From: Nocardia sp.
GTDB taxonomy: Bacteria; Actinomycetota; Actinomycetes; Mycobacteriales; Mycobacteriaceae
Direction of reading: 5' to 3'
DNA length: 64,000 bases
Assembly: GCA_014360565.1 (NCBI GenBank)
Contig: JACIXH010000001.1
Span: 62,001-126,000, forward strand
The notes below the pieces were generated by a model. It was not told the DNA's origin. It did no database searches and saw only the letters and a program-made list of their open reading frames with translations. How positions within the stretch are numbered: the stretch's first letter is position 1; every line of letters begins with the position of its first letter. Positions 18,180-60,130 of the stretch are shown piece after piece. Made by a program: the position numbers and the translations under genes.

Positions 18180-18641
18180 CGCAATTTTCTCCAAGTGTCT
18201 GTATCTGCTTTGTGGGCGGTGGCGATCGCTGCACAAAGGGGTCTTTTGGGTGGCTCCCCGTGCTCGCGCGGAGAAACCCGATCCGACATTCCGAGGAAGT
18301 GCGCGCCACTGGGACAGGCGCGGCAGTTGTTCGGCAGCAGAGCGGTCCTCATCGACCGCATTGCTCGGTGTCTTCGGCCGGTGGTCCACGCGGTGCCGCC
18401 GACGGGGACCGGCGGCCAGGTGTTGGGCTCGGTGTCGGCGGTCGCGATATCGAGAGCAGGCGCAGTGAACTGGGGCACTTCGTGCGGTGGGCTCGATCGC
18501 GGCTTTCACGAACAGCCGAACGGCGATCTCCCGCCATCGTGGTTGGCAGGTTGGGATCGGCGCGCACGCGGTATGTCCCTGCCGACCAGGGGGCGATCAG
18601 CGATGGACCAATTCGGACGCTGGGACCGAGCAGGGGTTTCG
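18180..18641. other. Intergenic region upstream of the acyl-CoA oxidase gene
   Basis: These 462 bases separate the conjugation operon end from the metabolic pair and should hold the promoter of the latter. Short frames exist on both strands but none has a good start, codon bias or recognisable product. No repeat or strong hairpin was noticed. Confidence 0.4.
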
Positions 18642-19553
18642 TCACAGTTCAGCGCCCGGAATGAGGGAGCGATCTGTTGGTTGGCTGGTCGGTCGGTGCT
18701 GCTCGGCTGCTTCGTTGTCGGGTTCTGTCGCCGCGGCCGGTAGCGCTAGGTGGACGGCGTTTTCGATCCGGTGCCCGGCGGCCGAGGGATCATCTGCTGT
18801 GGTGGGGTCGATGAGTTGATGGCGAGCGCGGGTGAGCAGTTCTTGTGTCGTCGGCGGCATCACCAGGCCCGGTTCCGCACCGGTCGGTGGGGTGGTGGTG
18901 CGGCGCAGGCTGGCCAGCGACGATCGAACACTCGCCGCGACCGCCGGGGTGGCGAGGTCACGCCAGAGCGCGGTCAGGTCGTCGACGGCGCGCAGGCTGT
19001 GCGCGGCGAGACGCTCAGCGAGGTGGGCATCGGTCACTGTCACAGCGCGGACGCGTTGGGCGGGCCTCATTCCGATCGCGGCGGCGGTATGGATGATGCG
19101 CGTGCGGATCGCGTCCATATTCCGTCGAAGCTGATGCGCCACCGCAGGTTCTGGTTCTGATTCGATCCCGGCGCGTTGCAGATGTTGGTGGCGCAGGACC
19201 GAGACCGTGGCCATGTCGACGAGCCGGTTCGTGTCGGCGACGACTCGGCCGAACCCACGGCGGATCACGTTATTTTTGGGTGGATCGCGCAATACCGTGG
19301 TCGGTTGCCACATCCTGTTCGCGTTGCCGTATTCGCGTGCTTGGTTGATCCATACCGCGGGCACTCCCCTGCTGGCGGCGGTGATCTCGGCGATGCTGCG
19401 GTCATGGTCGAGGCGAACGAGTTCCGGGGCGTGCTGCTGGCGTCCACGAATGACACCGGCGCGGCGAGCCAGGTCATGGATCAGCGTGAGCGACTCGGCC
19501 TGCGGGGCGGGCAGATCGGAGACCAGACGAGGGCGAGCCGTGGGGCTGCTCAT
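18642..19553 (-). CDS. Seven-member family protein A
   Basis: A 303-residue soluble, mostly helical protein, ATG at 19553 overlapping the previous stop. It belongs to a set of seven diverged paralogues in this window (also 19550, 24644, 25600, 26586, 27608 and 30717). Shared features: an early helix, a G-V-P-x-x-W-I-x-Q-A-R-x-x-G motif (here VPAVWINQAREYGN), a second helix with ADTNRLVDMATVSVLR, a TALWRDLA helix and a C-terminal A-V-x-x-A segment. No signal peptide or enzyme motif. It is the last gene of the conjugation region. Function unknown; co-occurrence with T4SS genes suggests a DNA-processing or coupling accessory role. Confidence 0.65.
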   Translation of the reverse strand: MSSPTARPRLVSDLPAPQAESLTLIHDLARRAGVIRGRQQHAPELVRLDHDRSIAEITAASRGVPAVWINQAREYGNANRMWQPTTVLRDPPKNNVIRRGFGRVVADTNRLVDMATVSVLRHQHLQRAGIESEPEPAVAHQLRRNMDAIRTRIIHTAAAIGMRPAQRVRAVTVTDAHLAERLAAHSLRAVDDLTALWRDLATPAVAASVRSSLASLRRTTTPPTGAEPGLVMPPTTQELLTRARHQLIDPTTADDPSAAGHRIENAVHLALPAAATEPDNEAAEQHRPTSQPTDRSLIPGAEL

Positions 19554-20410
19554 GGATCGATCCCGGGATAGTTGATCTCGGGGGCGCTGAACATCGGTGC
19601 GGTGATGTCGGCGTCATAGTCGGTGTGGGCCGACTGCGATCGTGTGGCCTCGACAGCGGCACCGATGTGTGCGCCTGGCGCGTCGGAGAACAGGCCAGAC
19701 ACACCGACATCGCGGCCGCTGAGGGTGTCCAGCATCGCCAGGGGATCCGGTGCGGCGATCGTCGGGTTCGGTGTGATCCCTGCTGCGGCCAAGGCGATGG
19801 ATTGGGCGGTGTAGCTGGTCATGTCGGTGTTCGCGATCGCGTGCCAGTTTTGGGTGAGTTGAGCTTGGGTCTGCCCGGCCGCTGATGCCGAGGCTTGCTC
19901 GATCCATTGCGGGTGCGGCCAGTGCTGGCGGGCTTGCTCGGTGTCGATACCGAGTAGGACACCGATCTGGGCGGATCGGCGCCATAGCGTGGTGAGGGTC
20001 TGGTCCACGCTTGCGGTGGTGTCGTCGTGTCGCCCGGTGCCGTGGGTGTAGGCGGCGTGGATGCCGGTGAACCGGGCTAGTCGGTCGATATCGGCGCGGA
20101 GGTTGTCGACCAACGCGCCGCGATCGACCGGGGCGGCGCGGCGCAGGAACAGGTTGGTGTTCCAGCGGATTGCTTTGGTGCCGCGTTCGCGTGCCTGATC
20201 GATCCACTCGGCCGGGACCCCGCCCGCGAGGGCCGCCGCGGCGAGTTCGGTGTGCAGGATCGCCCGCGCGTGGAAACTCTGCGTCCGGTCTTGGGCCGGC
20301 TCAATACCGCTGGCGCGCTGGACGTTCAGCATCTTCTGGGCGTCAGCGGCCTGGTTCTGAAGTGCTTTGAGCACCCGTTTCTGGACTGTGGTCGCGTTTG
20401 CCATACTCAC
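19550..20410 (-). CDS. Seven-member family protein B
   Basis: A 286-residue protein started at the GTG at 20410, which overlaps the upstream TGA (an ATG at 20404 is the alternative). It shows the family pattern clearly: KALQNQAADAQKML at the N-terminus, VPAEWIDQARERGTKAIRW in the middle, LRADIDRLARFTGIHAAY, TTLWRRSAQIGVLLGI and a C-terminal IGAAVEATRS. It is predicted all-helical and cytoplasmic. Its stop overlaps the start of family protein A. Closest in layout to proteins F (27608) and G (30717). Function unknown. Confidence 0.65.
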   Translation of the reverse strand: MSMANATTVQKRVLKALQNQAADAQKMLNVQRASGIEPAQDRTQSFHARAILHTELAAAALAGGVPAEWIDQARERGTKAIRWNTNLFLRRAAPVDRGALVDNLRADIDRLARFTGIHAAYTHGTGRHDDTTASVDQTLTTLWRRSAQIGVLLGIDTEQARQHWPHPQWIEQASASAAGQTQAQLTQNWHAIANTDMTSYTAQSIALAAAGITPNPTIAAPDPLAMLDTLSGRDVGVSGLFSDAPGAHIGAAVEATRSQSAHTDYDADITAPMFSAPEINYPGIDP

Positions 20411-21261
20411 TGCGGCTCACCGCCCTGCGCCAAGGCCCGGAAGTCCGGAGCGAAGCCGAGGGCTTCGATCGGGATGGTCGATCCGGGGGCGCCGAACCAG
20501 TTCGCCGGAACCTGCTCGCTTGTGAGCCCGGAGGTGTCGATGTGCTGGTCGGGTGTGCACCTGTGCAGGGGGCCGTTGGCGGCGTCGAGGATGTATCGGA
20601 ACTGTGGGTCGATGTGGCGGACGAACAGCGCGCTCATCGCCATTTTGTCCTCGGCGTTGACCGCGGCCTCGAAGCAGGCGTGCAGCCCGGCGAAGCGGAT
20701 GGCGACGCTTTGGTGGCGCCACCATTGCCGGCACCACGTGTACTGGCCTTCGCGGTTGTTGGCGGCGATCTTGACTGACGTCACTGGCAGCAGCCATTGT
20801 TCGGCGAATTCGCTGTAGTGGTCGAACTTCTTCGGTGGCTTGTCGTCGTCGACAACCGGGGGCTTGGTGCCGAACCAACCAGGTGGGACAGGGTCGAACG
20901 GCAACGACGGTGTGGCCTGGTGATGGGTGCGAGTGCACCGGTGCAGGGGGCCGTGCGCGGCGTCGAGGATGAGGTTGACGTGCGGGTCGAAGTGGCTCAG
21001 CAGGAAGGTGCTCAAGCTCGATCCGGCCTTGGAGCGTCGCATCGCCTCGAACGCGGTGTGCACATGGGCGACCCGCACCGCGACCGGGCGATGAGACCAC
21101 CACCGCGTGCACCAGGTGAAGGTGTTCTCCCGGTTCGCTTCCGCCAGCCGGACGTTGATCGTGGGCAACATCCACGCGTTGGCGAAATCGGTGAAGTGGC
21201 CGAATTGCGGTGGCATCGGCGCTGTGGTGCTGGCTACCGGTGTTGAGCTCGGGCCGCTCAT
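20407..21261 (-). CDS. Protein with two tandem DUF4913 domains
   Basis: A 284-residue protein, ATG at 21261 overlapping the coupling-protein stop. Two copies of the DUF4913 pattern are visible. Copy 1 (about residues 20-120) has FANAWMLPTINVRL, WCTRWWSHRPVAVRV and a DAAHGPLHRC end. Copy 2 (about residues 140-245) has FAEQWLLPVTSVKI, WCRQWWRHQSVAIRF and DAANGPLHRC. DUF4913 proteins are typical of actinobacterial conjugative elements and plasmids and usually have one domain. Its place directly after the VirD4-like gene suggests a partner of the coupling protein (inference). Confidence 0.8.
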   Translation of the reverse strand: MSGPSSTPVASTTAPMPPQFGHFTDFANAWMLPTINVRLAEANRENTFTWCTRWWSHRPVAVRVAHVHTAFEAMRRSKAGSSLSTFLLSHFDPHVNLILDAAHGPLHRCTRTHHQATPSLPFDPVPPGWFGTKPPVVDDDKPPKKFDHYSEFAEQWLLPVTSVKIAANNREGQYTWCRQWWRHQSVAIRFAGLHACFEAAVNAEDKMAMSALFVRHIDPQFRYILDAANGPLHRCTPDQHIDTSGLTSEQVPANWFGAPGSTIPIEALGFAPDFRALAQGGEPQ

Positions 21262-23156
21262 GAGGGCCCCTCCTCTGCTGTCGACGGCCCGGATTTGATC
21301 AGCGAGACGCGTCCGCCTTCGAACCGTTGCATCGACTTGCGCACCAGCGGCGCGTACTCGCTGTCGAACCACGGGACTTTGCGGACCACGACCGGGCCGT
21401 GGCCGGGAAGTCGGACCAGGGCGCGGTCTTTCGGCAGGGCAGCGAGCATCGCGACATCGAGAATGGGTTCAGCACGCCAGGACAGGCTGCGTTGGATCCC
21501 GCCGGGGGTGTAGGTGCGGGAACGATCGGAGACGTCGTGTTGCCCGGCCATCGCCGACCAATGCTCCAAGTAGTCCCGCGAGGCGATGGAGCCGCCGTAG
21601 ACCTCGATCGACTGGGCCATCATGGTCTTCAAACCATTGACGCCCCATAGGTTTTCGCCTTGTTCGAGGACCTGGAGAATGGTCATCAGGATGATCCCGC
21701 AGCCCGCCGAATACGTGTAGTAGGAGGGCAGTTCGCTGATTCGGGCACAGTTGGCGGCTTCATCGAGCACACACAACAGCGGTGTCGCCAGTCGCCCGTC
21801 CGGGCGGGCTCGGGCCGCAGTCAGGGCGGCTTCGAGGACTTGGCCGACCAGCGCGGCGGTCAAGGGCGTGGCACCATCAGGCCCGGTCATCGACAGCGGG
21901 TACAGGGTATCGTTGGAGGTGACGAACGCGACGGGATCGAACTCCGGCAACAGGTGCGTGCGCGCCTGTTCGGTGGCCTCGATCAGGACACCGTTGCGAA
22001 TCGAGGACACTTTCCCGCCCCGGCTCGGTGCCGCGGTCGTGGGCTTGGCGGTGGTTTCGCTGACCTGGAACAGTTTCCGAACCGGGGGCGTGATCATTTG
22101 GGCGTACCCGGAATCGGAGAGCACGTTGAGGAACCTTCGCGCCATGTCGTAGAGGCCGTCGCGTTGTCTGGCGTAGAGGCCTTGGCATTCCAGGATCCGT
22201 GCAGCGGGCCGATCATGGCCGTAGTGGCGCAATATCAATGCCGGGGTCGGATCCTGGTCGCGGCCGAGCCATTCCGCCACATGGTGCAGGTCCCCGCCCG
22301 CGCACGCGGCGGCGAAGACGCACAGCGCGAACAGCTCTTGGGCGCCACCGTCGAAGTAGGCATCGGTCTTGGCATTGGCGATCTCGTTCGCGGAGCCGGC
22401 CGACCCGGACACGAAGAACCCCGCCAGCTTTCGCGCTGCGGGTAGTCCGGTGACTTGGTTGAACAGATTCACCCAGAACCCGCACACCACCTGCCCGGTC
22501 ACCGCTTGTAGGTCACATACCCACACTTGGCCGACTTGCTCGCGCCCGTACACGGTGTGCCGGTACAGGTCCGGTTTGTTCGATGTGGCCAGGCACGGCC
22601 CCCACGCCGATAGCACCGCGGGGATCGCCCAGGCCACGGTCTTGCCGGTTCGCTGACCCGCCGTCACTGTGACACCGAGTTCGGCGGGTACGTGTAGGGC
22701 GATGTCGCCGATGACCGTGCGCCCCAGCAGCGGTCCGGGATTGGCTCGGACTTCGGGTGGTGCGTCGGCGAGCAATCGTTGGTTGTCGGCGAGGTTGTCT
22801 GCGACGCGAGCGATGCGGATCTTGCCTGGCCGTTGCATCGTTCGCGCGGCCACATCGACTTCCCGGCCGGTACCGAACATCGCAACCCCGCGTACTGCCA
22901 GCGCACCGATCGCGCACAGCAGAACCACGGCGATCGGGGTCGCTTGCCAGGGCCATCGTTTGTCCGCGGCGAGGACCGACAGCAAGGCGATGAACGGGTT
23001 CCATGACATCGTTTGTCCGGCCCACCAGCTGCCCAGTTTCAACGCCGCCCACAGCACGACCACAACAGCGAGCAGTGCCAACAGAATGAGGAGCATGCTG
23101 GCTTCCTCACCCATCCCGGATTTGGTGCGACGGCGGGTTTCACGGGGAGAGAACAT
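21258..23156 (-). CDS. VirD4/TraG-type type IV coupling protein
   Basis: A 632-residue protein with two N-terminal membrane helices (about residues 21-43 and 75-97) followed by a cytoplasmic ATPase domain. Walker A is AGQRTGKT (166-173) and Walker B is LLCVLDEA (460-467). TSNKPDLYRHT after the P-loop is typical of TraG/TraD proteins that pass substrate to a type IV channel. The ATG at 23156 has AAAGGA upstream and leaves a short basic N-terminus before the first helix. In conjugation this hexamer links the relaxosome to the VirB4/VirB6 machinery at the inner membrane. It is separated from those genes by a block of unknown genes, but all read in the same direction. Confidence 0.88.
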   Translation of the reverse strand: MFSPRETRRRTKSGMGEEASMLLILLALLAVVVVLWAALKLGSWWAGQTMSWNPFIALLSVLAADKRWPWQATPIAVVLLCAIGALAVRGVAMFGTGREVDVAARTMQRPGKIRIARVADNLADNQRLLADAPPEVRANPGPLLGRTVIGDIALHVPAELGVTVTAGQRTGKTVAWAIPAVLSAWGPCLATSNKPDLYRHTVYGREQVGQVWVCDLQAVTGQVVCGFWVNLFNQVTGLPAARKLAGFFVSGSAGSANEIANAKTDAYFDGGAQELFALCVFAAACAGGDLHHVAEWLGRDQDPTPALILRHYGHDRPAARILECQGLYARQRDGLYDMARRFLNVLSDSGYAQMITPPVRKLFQVSETTAKPTTAAPSRGGKVSSIRNGVLIEATEQARTHLLPEFDPVAFVTSNDTLYPLSMTGPDGATPLTAALVGQVLEAALTAARARPDGRLATPLLCVLDEAANCARISELPSYYTYSAGCGIILMTILQVLEQGENLWGVNGLKTMMAQSIEVYGGSIASRDYLEHWSAMAGQHDVSDRSRTYTPGGIQRSLSWRAEPILDVAMLAALPKDRALVRLPGHGPVVVRKVPWFDSEYAPLVRKSMQRFEGGRVSLIKSGPSTAEEGPS

Positions 23157-23172
23157 GATTGACCTGGTCCTT

Positions 23173-24429
23173 TCAGAGTTGGGGGTCAACGGCAGATTCG
23201 TGCGCGGGCGCGTCGATGACGCCGGTGAGTCCGGGGCTCGCCCACTCGGCGGCGAAATCGGTATGAGGTAGGGCAGCGTCTACCGCGCCGGAGATCACCG
23301 CACCTGGCCCTGGTAGGTCGGTACTGGCTGTGGAGCTGAGGTGGTGGGTGGTGGTCTCTGCGCCTGCGGCCAGCGCGAGCGCGGGTGGTTGGTCGGGTGC
23401 GATGCCGAGCTGGGTACGCAGTGCGTCGAGTTCTGCCAGCGCGTTGTCGCGTTCGGACAGGACGTGGTCGAGCTGCGCCAGCCGGGGCGCCCCGGGCTGT
23501 TGTGACCAGAACTGCCCCGACAGTCCGGTTTGGTAGGCGCTGGTGATTTCGTCGGGGTCAGCGCCGGCGGAGAGAGCAGCGCGGTTGGCCTCGCGCGCAC
23601 CGTCCATCAACCGCTCCATCTGACCGATCAGGACTTGCCCGCCCTGGGGTGTTCCGTCGAACTCGGCGGCCAGCCGGATGTGCTGAGCGGTCAGGTCTTG
23701 CAGTCGGCGCACAGCAGCGATCTGAGCCGGGACCTGGTCGAGGGTGGCAGTGACGGCGCGGTCGAGAGGCGCGATGCGGTGCTCGGCGGACAACAGCGCG
23801 GTGATTTCCTCCGCGCCGGTGTCCAGATCACCGAGAGCTTCCTCGGCGGAGAGCAGCTCGTCGGAGCTGTTGATGATCGCGTCGATCTCGGCCAGGCTCA
23901 GCTGTTCGCCGGATCGCCCGCCCAGCGCGCGATCAGCGGCATTACCCGAGCGCGTCGCCGCGGCGCTGGGGTCGGGGACCACGCTCAGGTGGCGGGGTCG
24001 CCACCGGGCGCCGTCTTGAGCTGATTGGTCGTTGACCGGCTCGAGGTGCCCGGTCAGTTCGGCGGCTTGGCGTTGGGTTCGGACGGTGTTCGGGTCGATG
24101 CCGGAGCCGCCCTCGATGAACGATTGCTGGAGGCGACCGAACTCGACGCGTGCGGTTTCGGGGTTGGCAGTCCAGGACTGCACCGCGGTGGTCAATTGCT
24201 GCCACAGCCGCTGATGCTCGGGTGTGCCACCCTGTTGCCACTGGCGGGCGATGGCGTGCGCGCGAGCATTGAGTTCGACGATCTGAGCGGGGGTTTCGCC
24301 GTAGGCGGCGATCTCGCGTGTTTGGTGGTAGGTGGCGAAGTCGGCGCGCAGTTCGGCTTCGACGCGGTCTGCGGCTTCGCGGTAGTAGTCAGGGTTGGTG
24401 AAGCTCGTTCCTCGGGTCTCCCAGCTCAT
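23173..24429 (-). CDS. Large helical hypothetical protein upstream of the coupling protein
   Basis: A 418-residue soluble protein, ATG at 24429 with GGGAG seven bases upstream. It is rich in Ala, Glu and Gln, with several heptad-like helices (YYREAADRVEAELRADFATY near the start; LSERDNALAELDALRTQLG late, a likely coiled coil). No signal peptide and no catalytic motif. The Glu-rich helical make-up recalls accessory transfer proteins of actinobacterial ICEs. It is the first gene after an intrinsic terminator at 24539-24557, so it probably heads the transcript that carries the coupling protein. Confidence 0.65.
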   Translation of the reverse strand: MSWETRGTSFTNPDYYREAADRVEAELRADFATYHQTREIAAYGETPAQIVELNARAHAIARQWQQGGTPEHQRLWQQLTTAVQSWTANPETARVEFGRLQQSFIEGGSGIDPNTVRTQRQAAELTGHLEPVNDQSAQDGARWRPRHLSVVPDPSAAATRSGNAADRALGGRSGEQLSLAEIDAIINSSDELLSAEEALGDLDTGAEEITALLSAEHRIAPLDRAVTATLDQVPAQIAAVRRLQDLTAQHIRLAAEFDGTPQGGQVLIGQMERLMDGAREANRAALSAGADPDEITSAYQTGLSGQFWSQQPGAPRLAQLDHVLSERDNALAELDALRTQLGIAPDQPPALALAAGAETTTHHLSSTASTDLPGPGAVISGAVDAALPHTDFAAEWASPGLTGVIDAPAHESAVDPQL

Positions 24430-24538
24430 CGAGTGCTCCCGGAGAAGCAATCGCGATACAGCGGTGCGGGGTTCGAGGCAGAAGGTGGTCTTTCACGGAT
24501 ATGGATGGGCATCGTGCTTCCTCAAATTGAGAAAACGT

Positions 24539-24557
24539 CACACCCTTGTCGGGTGTG
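24539..24557 (-). terminator. Intrinsic terminator inside the conjugation region
   Basis: CACACCC pairs with GGGTGTG around a five-base loop. Reading on the minus strand it is followed by ACGTTTTCTC, a T-rich tract. It lies between the genes at 24644 and 23173 and should end the upstream transcript or thin it. A CTCAAATTGAG palindrome at 24521-24531, just beyond, could be an operator for the next transcript. Confidence 0.6.
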
Positions 24558-24643
24558 TGAGGTCCCAGCGGTTCAGGTTCGGTCGCTTCGGTCCAGTTCC
24601 CCCTAGCCGATGCGCCGACAAAACACAGATTGTTGTTGCGGCC

Positions 24644-25600
24644 TTACAGTTCTGGTCCGCGGTCGGGGCTGATCTCTCGGCCGCGCCCGGCTGCCGGGTC
24701 GTGGTCGGGCTCCCACGTCCACTCCCGGTCCTCGCCCAGGGCCGCGTCCACCACGGCGGTGATCGCGGTGCTCTCGGCCGCGAGATCGGTTGATTCGGAG
24801 TTACGGATAGCGGTGTCGACGAACTGGACCCGCAACGCACTCGTCGCGTCGGCGAGCATCTGGCGCGGCGTCGGCGGCGCCACCGCGGCGGGATCGGTGG
24901 GCGCGCCGGTTTCGGGATCTCGCGGAACATACGGTGGCACCGCCAACGCCGGATCAGCGCGGGCATAGCCGTTCCATTCCTGGGCCAGGGCTTGCTCGTC
25001 GTAGGCGGCGAAGGTGACCGCGTGCACGCGGCGGATCCCTTCCACGCTCGAACCCCACAGACTGTCGCCTTCGGCCGGGGTCAGTTGCGCCGCGGCCGCG
25101 AGCACGGTGATGCGCGTGTGCAGGGCTGCCATGTTGTCGGCGAACTGCGCCACCGCGATCGGGTCTCGGTCGAGAGTCCATCGCCCGGTGGTGATTCGGT
25201 CGATCCGTGCGGCTTCCAGGCTCGCCATGCGTTCCAGATTCCACAGGTCGACCTCGAGCATGTCGAGGTAGAACTCCTGCGCTTCGTTGGCCCGTGCGGG
25301 ATGCTGGCGCACCACGTGGCTCGAGGGTGAGCTCGCTCCGCGCTGGCCGAGTTCGCGGGCATCGACCACCCAGCCCGGATCGACACCTTCCAGCACTGCC
25401 TCGAACTGGGCATGCTCGGCTTCGACGCTGAGCGTTTCGAGTCGCTCCTGCCAGACCAGCTGGCTGTCTCCGGAGACGCCGTCGTCGAACATGCCCGGTC
25501 CCGCGTCGGTCACCTCGCGCAGCTGGGCAGCGACATTCTGGACCCGGCGCAGGAGCTCGCCGTGGCGCTGACTCATGGAGGGTTCGTGTGCGCTGGTCAT
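24644..25600 (-). CDS. Seven-member family protein C
   Basis: A 318-residue helical protein, ATG at 25600 within a TGATG overlap. Family features: LLRRVQNVAAQLREV at the start, GVDPGWVVDARELGQRG in the middle, FYLDMLEVDLWNLERMASLE, a THITVLAAAAQLTPAEGDSLWG-like helix pair (written RITVLAAAAQLTPAEGD in this protein) and a C-terminal VDAALGED with WEPDHDP. It is closest to protein D next to it, so the two look like a recent tandem duplicate. Function unknown. Confidence 0.65.
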   Translation of the reverse strand: MTSAHEPSMSQRHGELLRRVQNVAAQLREVTDAGPGMFDDGVSGDSQLVWQERLETLSVEAEHAQFEAVLEGVDPGWVVDARELGQRGASSPSSHVVRQHPARANEAQEFYLDMLEVDLWNLERMASLEAARIDRITTGRWTLDRDPIAVAQFADNMAALHTRITVLAAAAQLTPAEGDSLWGSSVEGIRRVHAVTFAAYDEQALAQEWNGYARADPALAVPPYVPRDPETGAPTDPAAVAPPTPRQMLADATSALRVQFVDTAIRNSESTDLAAESTAITAVVDAALGEDREWTWEPDHDPAAGRGREISPDRGPEL

Positions 25601-26589
25601 CACGACACTCCCGGCTCGTGGCCCGGCGCATAGCCGGGGATGCCCGGATCGGGGTCAGATCCTGGATCCGGCGCCCATACGGCTCCCGTGTCGGTGTTGG
25701 TCGCGTCCACGGCGGCGCCGATCGCCTCCGCGGCGTGAAGCCGATGAGCAGCGGCGGCACTGGCCGAAGACTGTGGCACCCCGGGGTGGTCGGCGCCCTC
25801 AAAGTCACGGGAAAAGAGCATCAGGGCGGCGCGCGCGATCATCTGCCGTGGCGACGGTGGCTCGGTGAGGCTGCCTGCCAAGAACTTTCCGGTGTCGGGG
25901 TCCTGGCGTCGATAAGGGGGTATCCGCAGTCTCGCGTCGGCGTCGGCATACTCGTGCCACTGCCCGAGCAGTTGCACGTCGCTCATCTGGTCGATCGCTG
26001 CGGCGTGCATTCGGCGCATGGGTTCGGCGCCCGCGCCCCACATCCGATCGCCTTCCTCCGGGGTGAGCTGCACGGCGGCCACGAGGGACGAGGCCCGCGA
26101 AAAACGCACGTGCATGTGCTCGAACACGGCTAAGTCGCGCGCCGAGTCGCCCGTGATAACTCCGTGGCCAGCCGCAGCTCGGACCGGGAGCGCCATGTCG
26201 AGGGCTGCCATCCGCTCGAGCTGCCACAGGTCCAGATCTAGTAGATCCAGGAAGAACCGCTCGATATCCAACTCGCGCACGGGAACCCGCCGCACCGCAC
26301 CTGTTTGCGGGTCCGCGCCTTGGTGCGAGCCCACCGTGCGCGCGTCCTCGATCCACGTCGGATCCACCCCTGCAGCCCGTGCCTGCTCCTGGGCGGCGGT
26401 GAGGGCGGCGTGGGGCCGGTCGATCTGCTCCTGCCACCTCTGTCGTAGGGGATCAGTGACATCGATGTCGGCGATCACCGATGTTGGCGATCCGTGAGAT
26501 CGGCTCACCTCAGCGGCGAGGTTCTGGATCCTGTGCATCCAGGAGCTCCACCGCAGAGGCGTTTGGTGTAGATCGCGCCCGCTGGTCAT
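25600..26589 (-). CDS. Seven-member family protein D
   Basis: A 329-residue helical protein, ATG at 26589 overlapping the previous stop (ATGA). It has MHRIQNLAAEVSR, GVDPTWIEDARTVGSHQG, FFLDLLDLDLWQLERMAALD, SLVAAVQLTPEEGDRMWGAG, PSPRQMIARAAL and IGAAVDATNTDTG, almost every segment matching protein C. No signal peptide or enzymatic motif. The Asp/Pro-rich last 30 residues are shared with C and E. Function unknown. Confidence 0.65.
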   Translation of the reverse strand: MTSGRDLHQTPLRWSSWMHRIQNLAAEVSRSHGSPTSVIADIDVTDPLRQRWQEQIDRPHAALTAAQEQARAAGVDPTWIEDARTVGSHQGADPQTGAVRRVPVRELDIERFFLDLLDLDLWQLERMAALDMALPVRAAAGHGVITGDSARDLAVFEHMHVRFSRASSLVAAVQLTPEEGDRMWGAGAEPMRRMHAAAIDQMSDVQLLGQWHEYADADARLRIPPYRRQDPDTGKFLAGSLTEPPSPRQMIARAALMLFSRDFEGADHPGVPQSSASAAAAHRLHAAEAIGAAVDATNTDTGAVWAPDPGSDPDPGIPGYAPGHEPGVS

Positions 26590-27527
26590 GACCCCACCCC
26601 CTGGTCGACGCCCACACCAGGTCCGCGTCCGGGCGGGTGTTGTGGATCGGGGTCGGGCTCCCAGTCGGTGCCGAGCCCGGTGCTGGTCGCTTCTACCGCC
26701 GTGCCGATGCCATGACCCAGGCGTGGGGCCGACTCGTCAGCGAAACTGGCTGCGGCTAGCGCCTGTTCGGCGCGCTCGGCGACCTCCCACGGTGTCGGCG
26801 GTCCGAGATTGGTAGAGGCACTGGTCGCCAGGTTGTCGAAGCCGCGCGAGACCTCGGCTTCGACACCTTTCCACGACATTTCCGCAAACCGTTGCTGCAG
26901 TTCGGTATCGGTGTAGGAGGCTGCGGTCAGCTCCGCCAACTGCTGCCAGGAGTCGGGTCCACGCCCCCACAGCTGGTGGGCCTCACCGTGGTCGAGGTCG
27001 ATCAGCGCCGCGGTGCCGGCGGCACGGCGCCACAGCGCGGCCATGTTGTCGTGGAGTTGGCGTTCTCCCGGTTCGTTGTCGGCCAACCCACCGGTGTGGA
27101 CGCGATGCAGGTACTCCGCGCGGACCAGGGCCGAGTGTTCCAGGCGCCACACATCATCGGCGATCTGGTCGAGCAGGTGCACCCGCGTCGGGCTCGCCCC
27201 AGGCGGAGACATCGGCAGGAGCGCGCTCTCGGGGGTATCACCCCAGCGGGCTCCCCTGGCTCCAGTCTCGGTGGCGTAGTCGATCATCCGTTGCGGGAGG
27301 TCGAGTCCATGGGCGTGGAGTTCGATCTCGGAGCGCTCGGCTTCGAGTGCTCGCAGGTTGGTCCGCCAGTTTTCGAGCTGGATGTTCGGGCCATTGGCGG
27401 CGGTCGAGTATTGCGGGTAACCGTGAAACAGCGTGCGGTAGTGCTCATAGCTCGAGTTCTGGATTCGTTCGAGCAGCCGAAGCTGCCACGACGGCAGATC
27501 CTCGGCACCGGACAGCGGATGACTCAC
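26586..27527 (-). CDS. Seven-member family protein E
   Basis: A 313-residue protein when started at the GTG at 27527, which has GGAGAAA six bases upstream; an in-frame ATG near 27599 is the alternative and longer starts would run into the preceding gene. Family features: LLERIQNSSYEHYR, GLDLPQRMIDYATETGARG, LLDQIADDVWRLEHSALVR, NMAALWRRAAGTAALIDL and IGTAVEATSTGLGTDWEPD. The central W of WI is replaced here (RMIDYA). Function unknown. Confidence 0.65.
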   Translation of the reverse strand: MSHPLSGAEDLPSWQLRLLERIQNSSYEHYRTLFHGYPQYSTAANGPNIQLENWRTNLRALEAERSEIELHAHGLDLPQRMIDYATETGARGARWGDTPESALLPMSPPGASPTRVHLLDQIADDVWRLEHSALVRAEYLHRVHTGGLADNEPGERQLHDNMAALWRRAAGTAALIDLDHGEAHQLWGRGPDSWQQLAELTAASYTDTELQQRFAEMSWKGVEAEVSRGFDNLATSASTNLGPPTPWEVAERAEQALAAASFADESAPRLGHGIGTAVEATSTGLGTDWEPDPDPQHPPGRGPGVGVDQGVGS

Positions 27528-27607
27528 TGGTTTCTCCAATCCTGTTGAATCACTGGACTTTCTGTGATGGCTGGCTGTGACGAGCGATGGCAGTGGCATC
27601 CGATCTG

Positions 27608-28477
27608 TCACGGCTCCGGGCCCATGTCGGGCCCGCGGTATCGGTCCGCGTGCGAAGCAGGCCGGTGATCGGTGGGCTCGGATTCGGTCTGGGAATCGGC
27701 GGCGGTGGCCTCGATCGCGGCGTCGATGCCAGCCCCACCCATGCCGCCCGTGGCTGGGTCGGGTTCGAGGGCGGCTGCGGCGAGCTCGACCATCCGATCG
27801 GGCAGCACGGGCAGTTGACGGGTGATGTCGTCGGGCGTGATTCCGGCGGCTTGGAGCACCATCACCGGCATCGACACCGTGGCGAAGTTGGTCTCGACGA
27901 CGGCCCGCCACTGCGTCATCAGCGCTGTCCGGTCCAGCGTTGCCATCGTTCGGGCGACGTGGTCGGTCCACGGGCTGTCGGTGGGTTGCCAGGCGTGTTG
28001 TTGTTCGACAGTGGTCAGGCCTAGGGCGTGGCCGACGGCACCGACGCGTTGCCAGTGCAAACCCATCACCCGCCGGAACGCGGCGAATCCCTCGCGCGGC
28101 AGAGTTCCCTGCTGGGAGAACGCCGCCCCCACTCCGGCCATCGTCTGTAGTTGCGCGACAGCTCGCAGGTGCCCGCGAAGCAGGGCGTCGCGGTCGATCG
28201 CTTCGGTGCTCAGCAGGGGCTGGCCGGGTTGCCAGCGGTGTCCGCGTTCACCGGAGGCGCGGGTGTAGTCGATCACCGATTTCGGCACCCCGACCGCGGT
28301 CGCGATCTGTTCCAGGTTTTCCCGGGTGCGGCGCCCGATATCGAGATGAGCCAGCGCCGTCGGCGACAGATGCGGGTTGACTCCGGTGCGGGATTGGTCG
28401 ATCAGGTGCTGGTTATCGCTGGCCAGGTTCTGCACGGCCTTGAGCAGCTTGGCCTGGATCGGGTTCGGATCGAACAT
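27608..28477 (-). CDS. Seven-member family protein F
   Basis: A 289-residue helical protein, ATG at 28477 preceded by GGTGAG. Family features: LLKAVQNLASDNQHLIDQSR, GVPKSVIDYTRASGERGHRW, LLRGHLRAVAQLQTMAGVGA, GLHWQRVGAVGHALGL, PDRMVELAAAALE and IDAAIEATAAD. It most resembles proteins B and G, which share the longer region between the central motif and the W-R helix. Function unknown. Confidence 0.65.
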   Translation of the reverse strand: MFDPNPIQAKLLKAVQNLASDNQHLIDQSRTGVNPHLSPTALAHLDIGRRTRENLEQIATAVGVPKSVIDYTRASGERGHRWQPGQPLLSTEAIDRDALLRGHLRAVAQLQTMAGVGAAFSQQGTLPREGFAAFRRVMGLHWQRVGAVGHALGLTTVEQQHAWQPTDSPWTDHVARTMATLDRTALMTQWRAVVETNFATVSMPVMVLQAAGITPDDITRQLPVLPDRMVELAAAALEPDPATGGMGGAGIDAAIEATAADSQTESEPTDHRPASHADRYRGPDMGPEP

Positions 28478-28478
28478 C

Positions 28479-29501
28479 TCACCGGCCCCGTCCCATACCG
28501 GGATCGCCCCATACCTCGATTTCCTTGCCCGTGGCGCGAGTAGGCGAAGGTTCCGCTCCCCCGCTGGTCAGGTCAGGGTCGGGGGCGGTGGGGTCGATGT
28601 CGTGGACCGCTGCGGCCGATACGGCGGCCTCGATCCATTCACCGGCTTCGACGATCTCCGCGTCGAGGATGGTTTGCGCAGTCGGGTCAGCGGTGTCATC
28701 GAGATGGTCAGCGAGGTGGTTGAATTCGTCGTTCAGGTGCGCGTTGATCGTCAGATCCGCGGCCAGCCCGTCCATGTCACCGAAGCCTCGAGACCCGCTA
28801 CCGGATAGATCGGCCCCGTTATCGGAGAAGAAGTCGTCGGGTTCGATCCCGGTGTCGTCGACGAACCGTTCTTCGTAGGCTCGGGCCGCGGCTTCGGCGT
28901 CCACGGAGAGGTCGCGGGTGGCATCTGCGGCGGCGAACTGGGCCGCCGCTGCCTGGCCTGCGCCGGTTCGTGCATCGGAGTGGTGCAAGGTGTCGGTGAA
29001 TCCCGCGGCACGGCGGCGAATCTCGATCATCAGTTTTTTGAGCTCGACGTCGAGTTTGTGCAGCTCAACGTCGCGGGCTTCGCGGTTGGTGTAGCCGGCG
29101 ATACGTTCGGTATGGAGTTCCTTGCTCTGTGTTCGGGAGAGCGCACCATCTTGTTCGCGTCGTGCGAGATCTGTTTCAGCCCTGGTGATTTGGCCTTCTT
29201 TGTGGCGGAGATCGACCTCGGTGATCTGTGCTGCGTTGGCGATGCGCGCGCGGACCTCGTCGATCTTGGCCATGCTCAGCGCTTGCTCTGTCCCCAGGTT
29301 GCCGAGCCTGGCCTGGTGCTCGATCCACGACCGTTGGTTCTTGGCCGCTTCGATCGCGGATCGCTGCTCGGATTCGGCGCGTGAGCGCGATTCCCCGCCT
29401 CTGCTGCGGAACAGTGCGTTGGTGGTGTGGGCGGTCTGTAGCGCCTGCAGGAATCCTTGACGGACCGCTTGGCCACCCTCTTCGACCGGATCCCCACTCA
29501 T
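28479..29501 (-). CDS. Coiled-coil hypothetical protein
   Basis: A 340-residue protein started at the ATG at 29501 in a TGATG overlap with the lipoprotein gene. Residues 40-170 are highly charged and read as a long coiled coil (RSAIEAAKNQRSWIEHQARL, AETDLARREQDG, VELHKLDVELKKLMIEIRRR). The second half is acidic with Asp-rich stretches and ends in low-complexity Pro/Gly. No signal peptide or membrane helix. A scaffold-like cytoplasmic role in the transfer machinery is possible from the coiled coil and context only. Confidence 0.65.
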   Translation of the reverse strand: MSGDPVEEGGQAVRQGFLQALQTAHTTNALFRSRGGESRSRAESEQRSAIEAAKNQRSWIEHQARLGNLGTEQALSMAKIDEVRARIANAAQITEVDLRHKEGQITRAETDLARREQDGALSRTQSKELHTERIAGYTNREARDVELHKLDVELKKLMIEIRRRAAGFTDTLHHSDARTGAGQAAAAQFAAADATRDLSVDAEAAARAYEERFVDDTGIEPDDFFSDNGADLSGSGSRGFGDMDGLAADLTINAHLNDEFNHLADHLDDTADPTAQTILDAEIVEAGEWIEAAVSAAAVHDIDPTAPDPDLTSGGAEPSPTRATGKEIEVWGDPGMGRGR

Positions 29502-30037
29502 CACAAAACCTGCATTTCGGCGAGCAGCCATGCCCGTTCGGAGCCTGGACGAGTCGATCTCGCGGACACCAAGAACACGATCGGTGTCCGATCGGCCGGA
29601 GTCAGGGTGACCGACAGGACCCGGCTCGACGAGGTCGCCGTATCAGGCGGATGATCGTCACCGGTAAGACGAACCTCGGTCCGCAACGGCACGTGGTGCT
29701 CAACCCAGTCCTGCCACACGGCGACAGTGATCGGCGACCACAGCGAGGCCCCCACACGAGTGTCGGTCGAGTACGCGGCCCGCATCAGCGGTCGCGCCGC
29801 CTCGAACATCGACCGCGCATCCAGCCCGACCACCGGATCCAGTTGATACAACGTGCTCACCGCGGCCCGCAGAACATCCGATGCCGAGCAGGGCCAAACC
29901 TCGGAGTGTGGTGGCGGGAAAGCCTGCGCGCTGCAGATCGGTTCGACTACCGGCGCATCCGCGGTCGAGCACCCACTCACTGCCGTCGGTGCAGCCAGTC
30001 CGACGACAACCGTGGTCGCGAACAGAGCGGGTTTCAT
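29501..30037 (-). CDS. Putative lipoprotein of the conjugation region
   Basis: A 178-residue protein, ATG at 30037 overlapping the upstream stop (ATGA). It has a lipoprotein signal: basic start (MK), hydrophobic TTVVVGLAAP and lipobox VSGC with Cys at about residue 21. The mature part has SDVLRAAVSTLYQLDP, a VAVWQDWVEHHVPL helix and LSVTLTPADRTPIVFLVS strands, resembling the NTF2-like periplasmic domains of the neighbouring transfer proteins. It should sit on the outer face of the membrane. No family named. Confidence 0.7.
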   Translation of the reverse strand: MKPALFATTVVVGLAAPTAVSGCSTADAPVVEPICSAQAFPPPHSEVWPCSASDVLRAAVSTLYQLDPVVGLDARSMFEAARPLMRAAYSTDTRVGASLWSPITVAVWQDWVEHHVPLRTEVRLTGDDHPPDTATSSSRVLSVTLTPADRTPIVFLVSARSTRPGSERAWLLAEMQVL

Positions 30038-30690
30038 GACGCGCTCTCCCACAGCTCGTGCAGGTCGACCGTCCGCCAGACGACCTGATCGGGCCAGGTG
30101 CATTGTTCGGCGGCCGGGTTGCGGACCGCGACAGTCGCGATATCGAGGACCAAGCCCTCGGTGGCGGCGATGCGGCGCAGCCGCGCGAAATCCAGGCCGC
30201 GACTGCGGGCCAGGTTCAACCGCAAGACACCGGCTTCGGCGCCCCACTCACGCACAGCGTGTGCGGCCAGCTCGATCGCCTTCTCCGCCGACACAGTGGC
30301 CGCGTCGACACCATCGACCATGGCGGCGCCGAAGCGTTCGTGCCAGATCATGCGACCGGACGCGGCGCAGACGGTGAACGCCTCCATCGTCGCCGCCGAC
30401 CACACCGTCAGCTTCGGGCCCGTCGCCGCCCTGCGCACAAGGTTGGCACCTGAACTTGCCCAGAGGATTTCGGTCTGTCGCAGACCCTCGTAATCGATAC
30501 CTGCGACTTCCAACAACGCCATCACGTAGCGCTGCGACATTTCTTCGGTCGTGAAGCCGTACTCGGTGGCGAGGCTGTCGAACTCCTCCGTAGTCGCAAA
30601 GGTCCACAAGTCGGTCAACCGGTCGCGGACCATGTCCTCGGGTGTGGTCGGGGGCGACGGAGCTTTCGAGGTGGTGGGTTGGGTTGTCAT
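30034..30690 (-). CDS. Hypothetical protein
   Basis: A 218-residue soluble protein, ATG at 30690 with GAGGAG upstream. After a Pro/Ser/Thr-rich start it appears as mixed helices and strands: MVRDRLTDLWTFATTEEFDS, EEMSQRYVMALLEVAGID, KLTVWSAATMEAFTVCA, AAHAVREWGAEAGVLRLNL and a C-terminal VVWRTVDLHELW. No signal peptide and no catalytic motif recognised. It overlaps the lipoprotein gene by four bases. Function unknown. Confidence 0.65.
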   Translation of the reverse strand: MTTQPTTSKAPSPPTTPEDMVRDRLTDLWTFATTEEFDSLATEYGFTTEEMSQRYVMALLEVAGIDYEGLRQTEILWASSGANLVRRAATGPKLTVWSAATMEAFTVCAASGRMIWHERFGAAMVDGVDAATVSAEKAIELAAHAVREWGAEAGVLRLNLARSRGLDFARLRRIAATEGLVLDIATVAVRNPAAEQCTWPDQVVWRTVDLHELWESAS

Positions 30691-30716
30691 GGGTTCTCCT
30701 CGAGACACGTACGGGG

Positions 30717-31631
30717 TCAGAAATCTGGTTCGGCGTGCAGTTGCGCTGACCTGGTCGGGGGTGGCAGGTCATGGGTGTCGCTATCGGCGAGGCCGTGAAC
30801 GTCGTCGACACCGGTCGCGGCGATTGCGGCGTCGATGCGTGCCCCGCCTTCGGATTCCAGAGATGCGGTGTGCCAGGCGTTCTCGGCGGTTGCCGCGAGC
30901 AGGTGCGGGGCAGGCGGTAGTTGATGTGGGGAACTGGCTGTGAGGTCGATGCCGACCATGCGCATCGCCGCGACCCGGACCCGTGCTTCACGCACGCTCG
31001 TAAAGTGGGTGAGCTCACGCCATTGGCGCCCCTGATCGGGTGGCGACTGTTGCTGGATCTGGGTTTGGCGTGAGTGCCAGTGGGTCGGATCGGTGGCCCA
31101 CCAGCCACGGGTTTCGGCTTCGGTGAGGTTGATGGCGGTGGCGACCATCGCCACTCGCAACCACTGCAACCGCAGATGCTGATCCAGCTTCTGCGCTGCT
31201 GGTGCGCTCACCTGGCCGTGGTCGCGGCGGACCGGGCCCACTGCGGCCAGGGTCCACAGTGTGTCGGCCTGGTGGTGTAGCTGGGCGATCAACAGCGACC
31301 GCGAGACCGGACGGCGAGGAGGCAACGAGGAGGTCCCGGTCGCTTTTCGACCTTCCTGACCAGCTTGGCGTGCATAGTCGATCCAGTTGGCGGGCACCCC
31401 GATCGCCGCGGCCTGTTCGTGGAGGATCCGCCCAGCGATCGAGAGATCCCGCAAGGTCTGAATGCGGCTGTGTGGTTCACGAGCGAGCAGCATCAGATCG
31501 ACGGTGACGTTCTGGATCGCCGCCGCCATCCGTCGATGCACGAGCATCGGAGGTGTCTTGCCGGGGTTGTTGTCCGGCGACGCGGCCAGCGCCGGGCTGG
31601 CGGGCTCGAGTGGTTGGGTGGTGTCAGCCAT
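30717..31631 (-). CDS. Seven-member family protein G
   Basis: A 304-residue helical protein, ATG at 31631 overlapping the previous gene by eight bases. Family features: MAAAIQNVTVDLMLLAREP, GVPANWIDYARQAGQEGRK, LIAQLHHQADTLWTLAAVG, LQWLRVAMVATAINL and IDAAIAATGVDD. It is separated from the other members by the lipoprotein and coiled-coil genes, so the family is spread through the transfer region rather than confined to one array. Function unknown. Confidence 0.65.
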   Translation of the reverse strand: MADTTQPLEPASPALAASPDNNPGKTPPMLVHRRMAAAIQNVTVDLMLLAREPHSRIQTLRDLSIAGRILHEQAAAIGVPANWIDYARQAGQEGRKATGTSSLPPRRPVSRSLLIAQLHHQADTLWTLAAVGPVRRDHGQVSAPAAQKLDQHLRLQWLRVAMVATAINLTEAETRGWWATDPTHWHSRQTQIQQQSPPDQGRQWRELTHFTSVREARVRVAAMRMVGIDLTASSPHQLPPAPHLLAATAENAWHTASLESEGGARIDAAIAATGVDDVHGLADSDTHDLPPPTRSAQLHAEPDF

Positions 31632-32187
31632 GGCCGGTCACCGAGTTGATGCGGTAGCTCGACATCCGCCACCCCTGCGACGTCTCTGTCACCGTGGCGG
31701 TGACCTGCATCCGCCGGTAGAGGGTGGTGGAGCCGTCCCGGTGCAGCACATGCTGGGTCACCGTGGCAGTGACCGTCGTCGCGGCGATGTCGGTTTTCGT
31801 CTGCTCGGCGTCGACCAGGGCGGTGACGATGTCGTTGCTGTCGCGCCATCGGGCCCATTCCGGCAGCGGTGCCAATCCGTTCGCCGGACCACTGTTCGCT
31901 GCGGCAGCCAGTTCGCCGGTCACCCACGGTGCGGCGCGGGTCAACCCGGTGCCCGGGCCGGGATCGGTGCGCGGTTGCCAGGAGAACATGGCCGCCAAAC
32001 CCATCTGGGTGACGGTCACGGCGTCGGCAGCCGCTGGATCCGGGCCCTCCACGTGGGCGGTACCCGGTGTGTGCGTACCGGGCACAGGTGCGCTGTCCTG
32101 CGCGCCGACCACCAGCACCGTGGCGACCACGATCAGGACTGTCGCGACACCGAGGGTCACAGCCCAGAGGGGTAGACGGTTCACCAT
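31624..32187 (-). CDS. VirB8/TcpC-like membrane-anchored protein
   Basis: A 187-residue protein, ATG at 32187 with GAGGAC upstream. One N-terminal membrane helix (about residues 7-28, LWAVTLGVATVLIVVATVLVVG) is followed by a periplasmic domain with a Thr/Val-rich beta sheet (KTDIAATTVTATVTQHVLHR, RRMQVTATVTETSQGWRM). This anchor-plus-NTF2-like layout matches VirB8/TcpC components of type IV channels. It sits between the cell-wall hydrolase and a family protein. Assignment by architecture and context, not by a diagnostic motif. Confidence 0.55.
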   Translation of the reverse strand: MVNRLPLWAVTLGVATVLIVVATVLVVGAQDSAPVPGTHTPGTAHVEGPDPAAADAVTVTQMGLAAMFSWQPRTDPGPGTGLTRAAPWVTGELAAAANSGPANGLAPLPEWARWRDSNDIVTALVDAEQTKTDIAATTVTATVTQHVLHRDGSTTLYRRMQVTATVTETSQGWRMSSYRINSVTGHG

Positions 32188-32194
32188 GGTGTCC

Positions 32195-33847
32195 TCAGCT
32201 CATCGTCGTCGACATCTGGGTGGCCATCGCGAGAATGTTGGCCACATACGGGCGGGTCTGAACTTCGTAATCCGATGAGCCCGTGGGGAATCCGCCCGAC
32301 CGCAGCACCGCGTGTTCGCCGGCGTTGTAGCCGGCGAGATAGAGCTCCACAGCACCGTTGGGAGCCACGACCTTGCCCTGCTCGATCCAGGTATCGACGT
32401 GGTCGGCGATGTCGCACAGATAGCGGGCCTGGCCGATGATCGCGTCGCCGTCTTCCCACACCGACGCGACACCATTACCGTCGGCGTCGATCACATACGG
32501 CTGCCCATCGGAGGCGAGAGCCGCCGCGGTGCCGGGCAGAAACTGCGCCAGACCTTGCGCACCGGCCGACGAGGTCAACCCGCGCTGAAAACCGGATTCT
32601 TTTTTGCCCTGGGCAGCCAGCAGCGACGCGCTGATTTGCGGGCATACGGTGCCACCCAGCCGATACCACGGATCCAAGTCGGTCGGGACGGTGTTCGGCG
32701 CGAGATCAGCTTCCCCGGCACTGGGTCCGCACTTCGATGCTGTGCTGGTGCCGGGTGGGTTCGTCGCGGCGGACCCGATCGGTGAGCCGTCTGGGTATCC
32801 CCCGCCCAGGGTGGTCACGTGGACATGGTCCATATGGTTGGCGGTGGCCCCGCCCCGGTCTTCCATCAGGTTGGACTCGCCGCTGGCCGCACGGTAGGTC
32901 TGGCGCCAGATCAAATAGTCGATCCGCAGCGCAATGGAGTTGGTGAGAACGAAGTCGGCGATCTGGTCACCGAGGGCTTTACCGTCCCCGGAAGTCGGGT
33001 CAGGGATCATGATGTCGATCGCCCGGCCGCTGGGATGATCGGGCCGATCATCCTCACGCTGCCCATAGATCTTCTGCACCTGAGGAAACCGTTGAACGAT
33101 CGTGCGCGCCAAACGGATCGAGTCGACCTGCAACCCACGCTCCAAGCCGATAGATGCAGGCATTTCGGGCAGCTCGGCGCCCGCCGCCGTACCGGCGCCA
33201 GCTACGGGAGCATCGCTGACTGATGTCGTCGGCGGCGACACCGCGCTCGATGTCGCGACACTGGTGGACTGGTCCACATTTCCTTGGAGCAGCCACGGCA
33301 TCGGGTCGATGGCCGTGCCGCCGCCGAATCGCCCTCCTTGGGTCCAGATTTCGAGATGCAAGTGCGCTCCATCTGGGCCTGCCGGGACGGTTTCGCCGTT
33401 GTAGCCGACCCCGGCGATCAGTTGACCGATACGCACGTTCTGGCCTTGTTCGACGCGGACGTCGTCGGCGAACATGTGCCCGTAGACCGAGGACACGGTT
33501 TCGCCGTCGATGTTGTGGTCGATGACCACCCAGATCCCGAACCCGCTGGCAGCTCCCACCCGCACGACGAGTCCGTCGGCGACCGCGTAGATGGCAGTCT
33601 TGGGCGCGGCGGCGAAATCCTGGCCCTGATGCCTTGTGCCCCAACGCATCCCGAAGCCCGAGGTCAGGGTGTAGCTGCCCTCGGCCATCGGCATCGTCCT
33701 CGCGTCGCCGGTCGCCGACGACGCACCGCTCGGCATCGCCGACGGCGCGCAGCCCCCCTTTTCGGCAACGCCCGCGAAGAGCAGCAGTCCAAGCAGCATC
33801 AGGGTCGCGCCCACGACCGCGACCGTCGCCCGAGCAGCACTACTCAT
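32195..33847 (-). CDS. Cell-wall hydrolase: M23 peptidase + middle domain + lytic transglycosylase
   Basis: A 550-residue exported protein with an N-terminal hydrophobic signal/anchor (about residues 7-27). Domain 1 (about residues 55-190) is an M23 metallopeptidase: RHQGQDFA with the His and Asp zinc ligands, YGHM and HLHLE with the final His. Domain 2 (about residues 240-370) has PSGRAIDIMIP and NHMDHVHV, as in the ARB_07466-type domain. Domain 3 (about residues 410-540) is an SLT lytic transglycosylase with the catalytic Glu in QGKKESGFQ, then SAGAQGLAQFLPGT and YLAGYNAG. It would cut both peptide and glycan bonds so that the conjugation channel can cross peptidoglycan (VirB1-like role). 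Confidence 0.85.
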   Translation of the reverse strand: MSSAARATVAVVGATLMLLGLLLFAGVAEKGGCAPSAMPSGASSATGDARTMPMAEGSYTLTSGFGMRWGTRHQGQDFAAAPKTAIYAVADGLVVRVGAASGFGIWVVIDHNIDGETVSSVYGHMFADDVRVEQGQNVRIGQLIAGVGYNGETVPAGPDGAHLHLEIWTQGGRFGGGTAIDPMPWLLQGNVDQSTSVATSSAVSPPTTSVSDAPVAGAGTAAGAELPEMPASIGLERGLQVDSIRLARTIVQRFPQVQKIYGQREDDRPDHPSGRAIDIMIPDPTSGDGKALGDQIADFVLTNSIALRIDYLIWRQTYRAASGESNLMEDRGGATANHMDHVHVTTLGGGYPDGSPIGSAATNPPGTSTASKCGPSAGEADLAPNTVPTDLDPWYRLGGTVCPQISASLLAAQGKKESGFQRGLTSSAGAQGLAQFLPGTAAALASDGQPYVIDADGNGVASVWEDGDAIIGQARYLCDIADHVDTWIEQGKVVAPNGAVELYLAGYNAGEHAVLRSGGFPTGSSDYEVQTRPYVANILAMATQMSTTMS

Positions 33848-60118: not shown

Positions 60119-60130
60119 CTGCACATATTG

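Follow-up and report, generated by a model that had tools for sequence, protein, structure and literature searches.

A 64,000-nucleotide stretch of Nocardia sp. DNA (assembly GCA_014360565.1, contig JACIXH010000001.1, positions 62,001 to 126,000; the window) contains a type IV conjugation region in which seven paralogous genes, all on the minus strand, are encoded around the gene for a VirD4-type coupling protein. We found that these genes form a multicopy family restricted to Nocardia, whose lineages are retained together across elements, are mostly under purifying selection and in many cases carry acidic-glycine C-terminal tails. Our tentative reading, whose probability we place a little below even, is that the products are soluble proteins, not redundant with one another, which VirD4 recruits by a relaxase-like tail and which are perhaps delivered with the DNA as co-substrates. 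Type IV conjugation regions with accessory proteins are already known as a setting; the family, judged by its sequences, is absent from the libraries searched, and what appears new is that many family tails and, under a loose pattern, the MobF relaxases of the same elements have similar acidic-glycine ends.

A family of seven paralogues

A sequence-only reading of positions 18,642 to 31,631 had proposed seven diverged homologues of an unnamed helical family making up about half of the transfer region. Seven homologous full-length proteins are indeed encoded there, and their genes together cover ~6.5 kb of the 13-kb interval (lengths in amino acids, aa):

18642..19553, minus strand: copy A, 303 aa; last gene of the block; C-terminal end GAEL
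19550..20410, minus strand: copy B, 286 aa; 4-base overlaps with A and the DUF4913 gene; end GIDP
24644..25603, minus strand: copy C, 319 aa; end GPEL
25600..26589, minus strand: copy D, 329 aa; apparent recent duplicate of C under relaxed constraint; end PGVS
26586..~27548, minus strand: copy E, ~320 aa, start uncertain; end GVGS
27608..28477, minus strand: copy F, 289 aa; end GPEP
30717..31631, minus strand: copy G, 304 aa; end EPDF, a tail outside the common type

We compared the seven copies all against all by BLASTP in a database of eleven proteins that included the neighboring proteins x425, x350, x224 and x321. The strongest links were C-D (1e-39 to 1e-45), C-E (1e-20), B-F (6e-18 to 4e-20) and F-G (2e-13), followed by E-B (4e-9) and G-E (2e-8); copy A was the most distant, with weak links to C (6e-6) and G (9e-6). 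Some distant pairs (B-C, B-D, C-G, D-F and A-D) had no direct significance and were connected through the remaining copies, and x425, x350, x224 and x321 gave no E-value < 0.09 against the seven in this search. All seven are thus linked, some indirectly, rather than showing the lack of similarity on which the proposed family could have foundered. By significant similarity, direct or through the set, the seven copies are one paralogous family, and chance similarity is ruled out by the BLASTP links and by family-profile matches in other genomes.

The motifs that had been named as shared fared less evenly when inspected by eye. An AV.AT-like segment is present in all seven, at its weakest in A, but the others are not universal: the early IQN, VQN or LQN occurs in B to G and not in A, GV..WI..AR..G is clear in A, B, C, D and G and diverged in E and F, and L..MA is found in A, C, D and F only. 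That no family could be named held up, with no match worth mention for the seven copies in Pfam, NCBIfam, PHROGs or PDB sequences. A phage origin was rejected, no PHROGs family being matched at E < 0.05, and a close-relative search of viral contigs with copy C found no relative. The computed isoelectric point is 4.5-6.8 for six copies, which speaks weakly against plain DNA coating, and 10.8 for A. Genes overlap by 4 bases at A/B, B/DUF4913, C/D and D/E, an arrangement that suggests coupled translation.

Copy F was modeled from 120 sequences (mean predicted local distance difference test score 89.7, predicted template modeling score 0.80). The model is all-helical, with eleven body helices and one further helix at 250-258 within the loose last 50 residues. 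Foldseek gave no E < 0.001 for F against PDB and viral models; its best structural match (VIA Z 7.1 over 78 residues) is usual for helical bundles. In the model of x425, two parts are helical with confidence, the linkers are loose and a helix in the tail spans 382-393. Neither F (PDB and viral models) nor x425 (PDB) significantly matched a known fold, an absence that does not amount to a new fold. F alone was modeled among the copies, and a common fold of all seven would rest on sequence homology.

Retained lineages and genus restriction

To place the family in related elements, we examined 78 loci located by way of VirD4. One or more full-length copies were present in 51, all Nocardia, while the 27 loci without one comprised 5 from Nocardia and 22 from other genera, the latter with no family copy. 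Five copies were the most frequent number (23 of the 51 loci), followed by six (10 loci), two and one (5 loci each), seven and four (3 each), and eleven and three (1 each), several of the low counts coming from short contigs. High copy number is therefore the rule in family-bearing loci, most often five to seven, as the sequence-only reading had asked. Nearer elements share the recurring order G-x224-x248-x350-F-E-(D)-C-x425-VirD4-DUF4913-B-A; in farther elements the two copies after DUF4913 are missing.

Genome searches gave the same restriction. Matches were found in 14 of 79 genomes, all 14 within the genus (which contributed 47 of the 79), and in 61 of 150 congeners, a few of these being only a single partial match; the family profile recovered full-length homologues in 13 further genomes. 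Outside the genus, a search of 397 genomes of the order, with sensitivity limited by scoring five candidates per genome, returned two weak partial matches (E 2.5e-4 and 6.5e-4). Among 72,556 plasmid records, tblastn with F, the one copy searched there, found nothing at E 0.01.

Two loci stood out in this survey. The element with eleven full-length copies (L116, Nocardia puris) also carries one short form, and many of its copies sit on long branches. At L005 (10947-17903, on a plasmid of Nocardia sp. NBC_01377), the usual site of the cassette is taken by four unnamed proteins (381-602 aa), flanked by a distant region and by VirD4; they have no family match, and TnsA-, Mu-transposase- and TniQ-like genes lie nearby.

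In a careful tree of 80 full-length members, in which long-branch rows are unsure, lineages spanning several elements were recovered for A (13 rows, support 99/98), C with D (16, 100/100), E (15, 92/90), F (7, 100/99), the clade with B (16, 100/98) and G (3, 100/100). A quick FastTree of 170 rows supported B (94), C (100), F (93) and G (86), while A (37) and E (36) were unsupported there and have their support only in the 80-row tree. The tree and loci together show distinct lineages kept together within each element, more weakly for A and E in the larger tree. The ratio of nonsynonymous to synonymous substitution rates (dN/dS) against three relatives was 0.11-0.43 for six of the seven copies. 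Copy D falls in the C clade and is absent from the next relatives; its dN/dS was 0.87 against the one true orthologue tested, and 0.54 and 0.53 against relatives without D, where the match is C-like. From these sequence comparisons, the copies look like ancient lineages retained across elements, about five of which seem maintained, and only D looks like a recent duplicate. The suggestion that the genes are not redundant is accordingly supported by the retained lineages, the dN/dS of six copies and the high-copy rule, with D as the exception; recent redundant copies are ruled out for all but D by the tree and dN/dS.

Partial relatives exist as well. The family profile, run on the window's genome, returned the seven copies and one partial match, in the 425-aa protein x425 directly before VirD4 (E 6.4e-4). 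This eighth relative has the N-terminal module only, and profile-profile comparison confirmed the shared module (95.8%, E 7.9e-9, 80 columns). Short forms in other elements combine the N-terminal module with the C-terminal tail and have no middle domain. Neither the module in x425 nor the C-terminal likeness of the family to neighbors and relaxases had been pointed out in the sequence-only reading. A protein of 294-295 aa also precedes x425 at L060 (5991-6878), L111 (7787-8671), L117 (7793-8677) and L122 (7778-8665); its end resembles the family tail, with a short helix, and the profile does not call it family.

C-terminal tails and the coupling protein

Orthologues from the family, of x350 and of x425 have C termini that look similar. 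We counted a strict end, [GD]x[ED][LP], on distinct tails; these and all following tail statistics ignore the relatedness of the sequences. It was present in 102 of 209 family tails: 29/35 for A, 12/35 for B, 23/43 for C, 0/1 for D, 15/37 for E, 19/37 for F, 0/8 for G and 4/13 for unassigned members. Short forms, outside this total, had it in 7/21. Among neighbors it closed 11/38 x350 and 4/42 x425 tails, and it was seen in 10/47 VirD4 tails from loci with the family and in 2/24 from loci without. None was found in DUF4913 (0/46), VirB4 (0/15), SCO6880 (0/7), the M23 peptidase-transglycosylase (M23SLT, 0/4), x187 (0/5), x224 (0/29) or x248 (0/33). In a second gene set, 61/115 family genes had the strict end vs. 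1/360 other genes. Information content is 1.6, 1.3 and 1.9 bits at positions -1, -2 and -4, and 0.1-0.6 bits from -5 to -32.

On the second gene set we also applied a tail score learned on the family alone, with the cutoff at the 95% level of 373 other genes. Above it were 94/115 family genes (by training), 23/25 x350, 8/24 x425, 9/28 relaxases, 16/68 VirD4, 2/25 DUF4913 and 2/15 x224, and none of the VirB4 (0/30), SCO6880 (0/25), M23SLT (0/17), x248 (0/12) or x187 (0/11) proteins. A loose end, [DE].G.{1,3}, occurred in 53/115 family genes, 14/25 x350, 18/28 relaxases, 4/24 x425, 8/68 VirD4, 3/30 VirB4 and 14/360 other genes, and a tail-helix pattern, [GAP]..[IL]..A[IV]..A, in 39/115 family genes, 16/24 x425, 7/25 x350 and 5/360 other genes. 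Within the window, A, B, C and F have the strict end.

For MobF relaxases, the loose end was present in 15/20 distinct tails (21 stretches) on family-bearing contigs, in 9/21 on other Nocardia contigs (22 stretches; one frame open, some perhaps broken) and in 2/20 from other genera, made up of 2/5 from the same taxonomic family and 0/15 from other families. By eye, two shorter relaxases (L172 and L209, 1396 and 1376 aa, from genomes G037 and G008) have, ~45 residues before their C terminus, a helix (SVIASAIDAA, SIADAINDA) that resembles the tail helix of the family.

In the mechanism we propose, a conjugation element of MobF/VirD4/VirB4-like type would have gained, in Nocardia, a cassette of soluble helical proteins. 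Each member would consist of a conserved N-terminal module and a helical body, followed by a disordered segment that includes a short helix. Roughly half of the family's distinct tails close with a D/E-x-G-x-E/D-P/L type end; x350 orthologues and, less often, those of x425 have the same kind of end, and the MobF relaxases of the same elements end in a related acidic-glycine way. The tail would be the means by which VirD4 recruits cargo, and the family members putative co-substrates that travel together with the relaxase-DNA complex or before it; in the recipient some five factors, none redundant, may jointly help the DNA settle. We infer recruitment by VirD4 because the family is encoded around it in conserved order and its tails resemble the ends of x350, x425 and, more loosely, relaxases; co-delivery would have a precedent in an F-type conjugation system that delivers several plasmid proteins. 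The tail would thus add a third reading, recruitment to VirD4 as cargo, to the hetero-oligomer or set of specificity factors suggested earlier.

Several observations weigh against this proposal. Retention of one copy of each lineage suits a machine part equally. G orthologues have the strict end in 0/8, VirD4, which is not a cargo, carries it in some elements, and in the window it is missing from D, E, G, x350, x425, VirD4 and the relaxase. The loose end is above background in DUF4913 as well (6/25). The relaxase that belongs to the window, with the end RSGMGL, does not fit the loose pattern, 11 of the 15 negative relaxases belong to one family, and the tail helix was found in 1/28 relaxases. 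Relaxases mostly have the glycine at -2 and the family has it at -4, so that the likeness depends on loose patterns, which were chosen after the tails had been seen. Nor was any matching of relaxase and family tails within one element evident in 12 elements examined by eye.

The main rival is a donor-side hetero-oligomer, a single mixed complex of the paralogues at the cytoplasmic mouth of the channel; its tails would bind VirD4 or a common hub and stay in the donor. We regard it as quite possible, though somewhat less probable than co-delivery. About five lineages, each mostly single-copy per element, would suit such an assembly, as would the 4-base overlaps at A/B, B/DUF4913, C/D and D/E and the strict end of some VirD4 proteins, and C-terminal docking has a precedent in passages on the F system, where the last ~15 residues of TraD bind TraM (PMC8406263). 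However, the same core genes run without the family in elements of other genera, copy number ranges from 1 to 11, and this model does not need the likeness to relaxase ends. It is improbable that the tails are no more than commonplace acidic, disordered C termini, lacking a specific partner, on proteins of unrelated role (e.g., regulation, exclusion or counter-defense): they are disordered in the models of F and x425 and D/E-rich, the loose pattern is raised in DUF4913 too and the helical bodies have no assigned function, but conservation at -1, -2 and -4 is position-specific relative to the tails' own composition, and the strict end is concentrated in family genes over other genes.

The fullest form of the co-delivery proposal is more doubtful. 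These elements would inject, besides the relaxase-DNA complex, five to seven (once eleven) helper paralogues and another two proteins, each directed to VirD4 by an acidic-glycine C terminus of a type not yet described in this Gram-positive lineage, one that is common in kind to the relaxase and some Rhodococcus-type giant methylase-helicase proteins.

The gene set also held 12 unclassified proteins of > 1900 aa, mostly adjoining DUF4913 in other genera, 5 of which have the loose end. The three that were scanned, from non-Nocardia elements, of 2190-2323 aa and encoded after DUF4913 (L144 12447-19352, L147 8974-15945 and L157 12766-19338), all match SNF2/ResIII helicases; L144 also matches methylase-like models, and the ends of L147 and L157 fit the loose pattern. 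These giant helicase proteins may resemble DarB, an injected protein of phage P1.

Surrounding genes and known systems

The remaining genes of the transfer region are as follows:

20407..21372, minus strand: DUF4913 protein with two DUF4913 stretches (Pfam 4.3e-51); adjoins VirD4 in every locus seen
21258..23189, minus strand: VirD4-type coupling protein (TraG-D_C 5.6e-19, T4SS-DNA_transf 4.2e-14)
23173..24450, minus strand: x425; own N-terminal helical domain, then family N-terminal module, linker and tail helix
28479..29531, minus strand: x350, an unrelated neighbor; orthologues mostly have a family-like tail, the window's copy ends GRGR
29501..30247, minus strand: x248 open frame, a neighbor without the tail; true start probably downstream
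30034..30708, minus strand: x224, a neighbor without the tail
31624..32187, minus strand: x187, a small transfer-region protein that occurs also in family-less elements
32195..33847, minus strand: M23 peptidase and SLT transglycosylase of the transfer apparatus (Pfam 6.2e-21 and 4.1e-7)
33930..35660, minus strand: VirB4-like ATPase (NCBIfam VirB4 models, best E 4.5e-16, far below their cutoffs)
35657..37129, minus strand: SCO6880-family protein (NCBIfam NF042935, 1.4e-138)

A MobF relaxase gene lies on the same contig, ~75 kb from the interval. The region is 98.8-99.9% identical in a 7.31-Mb single-contig genome, where it is therefore chromosomal. An acyl-CoA-dehydrogenase-like gene (a label from sequence, with no family search) at window 16326-18509 is intact here and split by ~12 kb of other DNA in genome G037. 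Secretory-lipase-like and cutinase-like genes lie at 44475-46825, and their relatives accompany transfer genes in several other elements. Two plus-strand tyrosine-integrase genes (49912-51240 and 54002-55321; Pfam 8.7e-13 and 5.7e-19) lie in areas that both gave 76% cross-matches over 1.5 kb when the window was compared with G037 by BLASTN. A Hachiman-like defense pair at 55599-59844, HamB helicase (PADLOC E 0 over 1-1161) and HamA (2e-90), adjoins the tRNA-Ala at 60130. We considered integration of the element at this tRNA and set it aside, since the near-identical genome G037 is collinear beyond it and thus gave no edge for the element.

Short C-terminal type IV signals are used by effector systems, e.g., the Legionella E-block. 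The tails here would be comparable as short acidic C-terminal addresses, but they differ in sequence and machine lineage, and their recognition is a prediction. Delivery of F-type plasmid proteins by conjugation is reportedly the subject of a second study besides that on pED208. According to passages of the latter (PMC8406263), the F-type pED208 system co-translocates ParA, ParB, SSB and Psi. As in that system, several element-encoded soluble proteins would here pass a conjugation channel with the coupling protein. Those pED208 proteins have known roles, whereas here a single new paralogous family in a Gram-positive system would be involved, its delivery putative. The VirD4/SCO6880-type regions of Rhodococcus and other Corynebacteriales-like genera have the same core around VirD4-DUF4913, but our 22 non-Nocardia loci contain no family copy. 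A 2011 survey reports 17 putative type IV secretion system-type elements in 275 actinobacterial genomes (PMC3218068), and a 2025 review names Streptomyces TraB and mycobacterial transfer, with Rhodococcus unmentioned in the passages found (PMC12857230). Our literature searches turned up no paper on these family proteins, which is not proof of absence.

VirD4/VirB4-type conjugation in Nocardia and Rhodococcus has been little described, and the element in the window may have a set of helper proteins that it docks, or sends across, together with its DNA. If the family is instead a machine part, it would be a genus-restricted, multi-paralogue addition to a conserved apparatus, in itself unusual. 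If the co-delivery reading is true, the tails would be a readable cargo address, and the substrates of these systems would become predictable from sequence.

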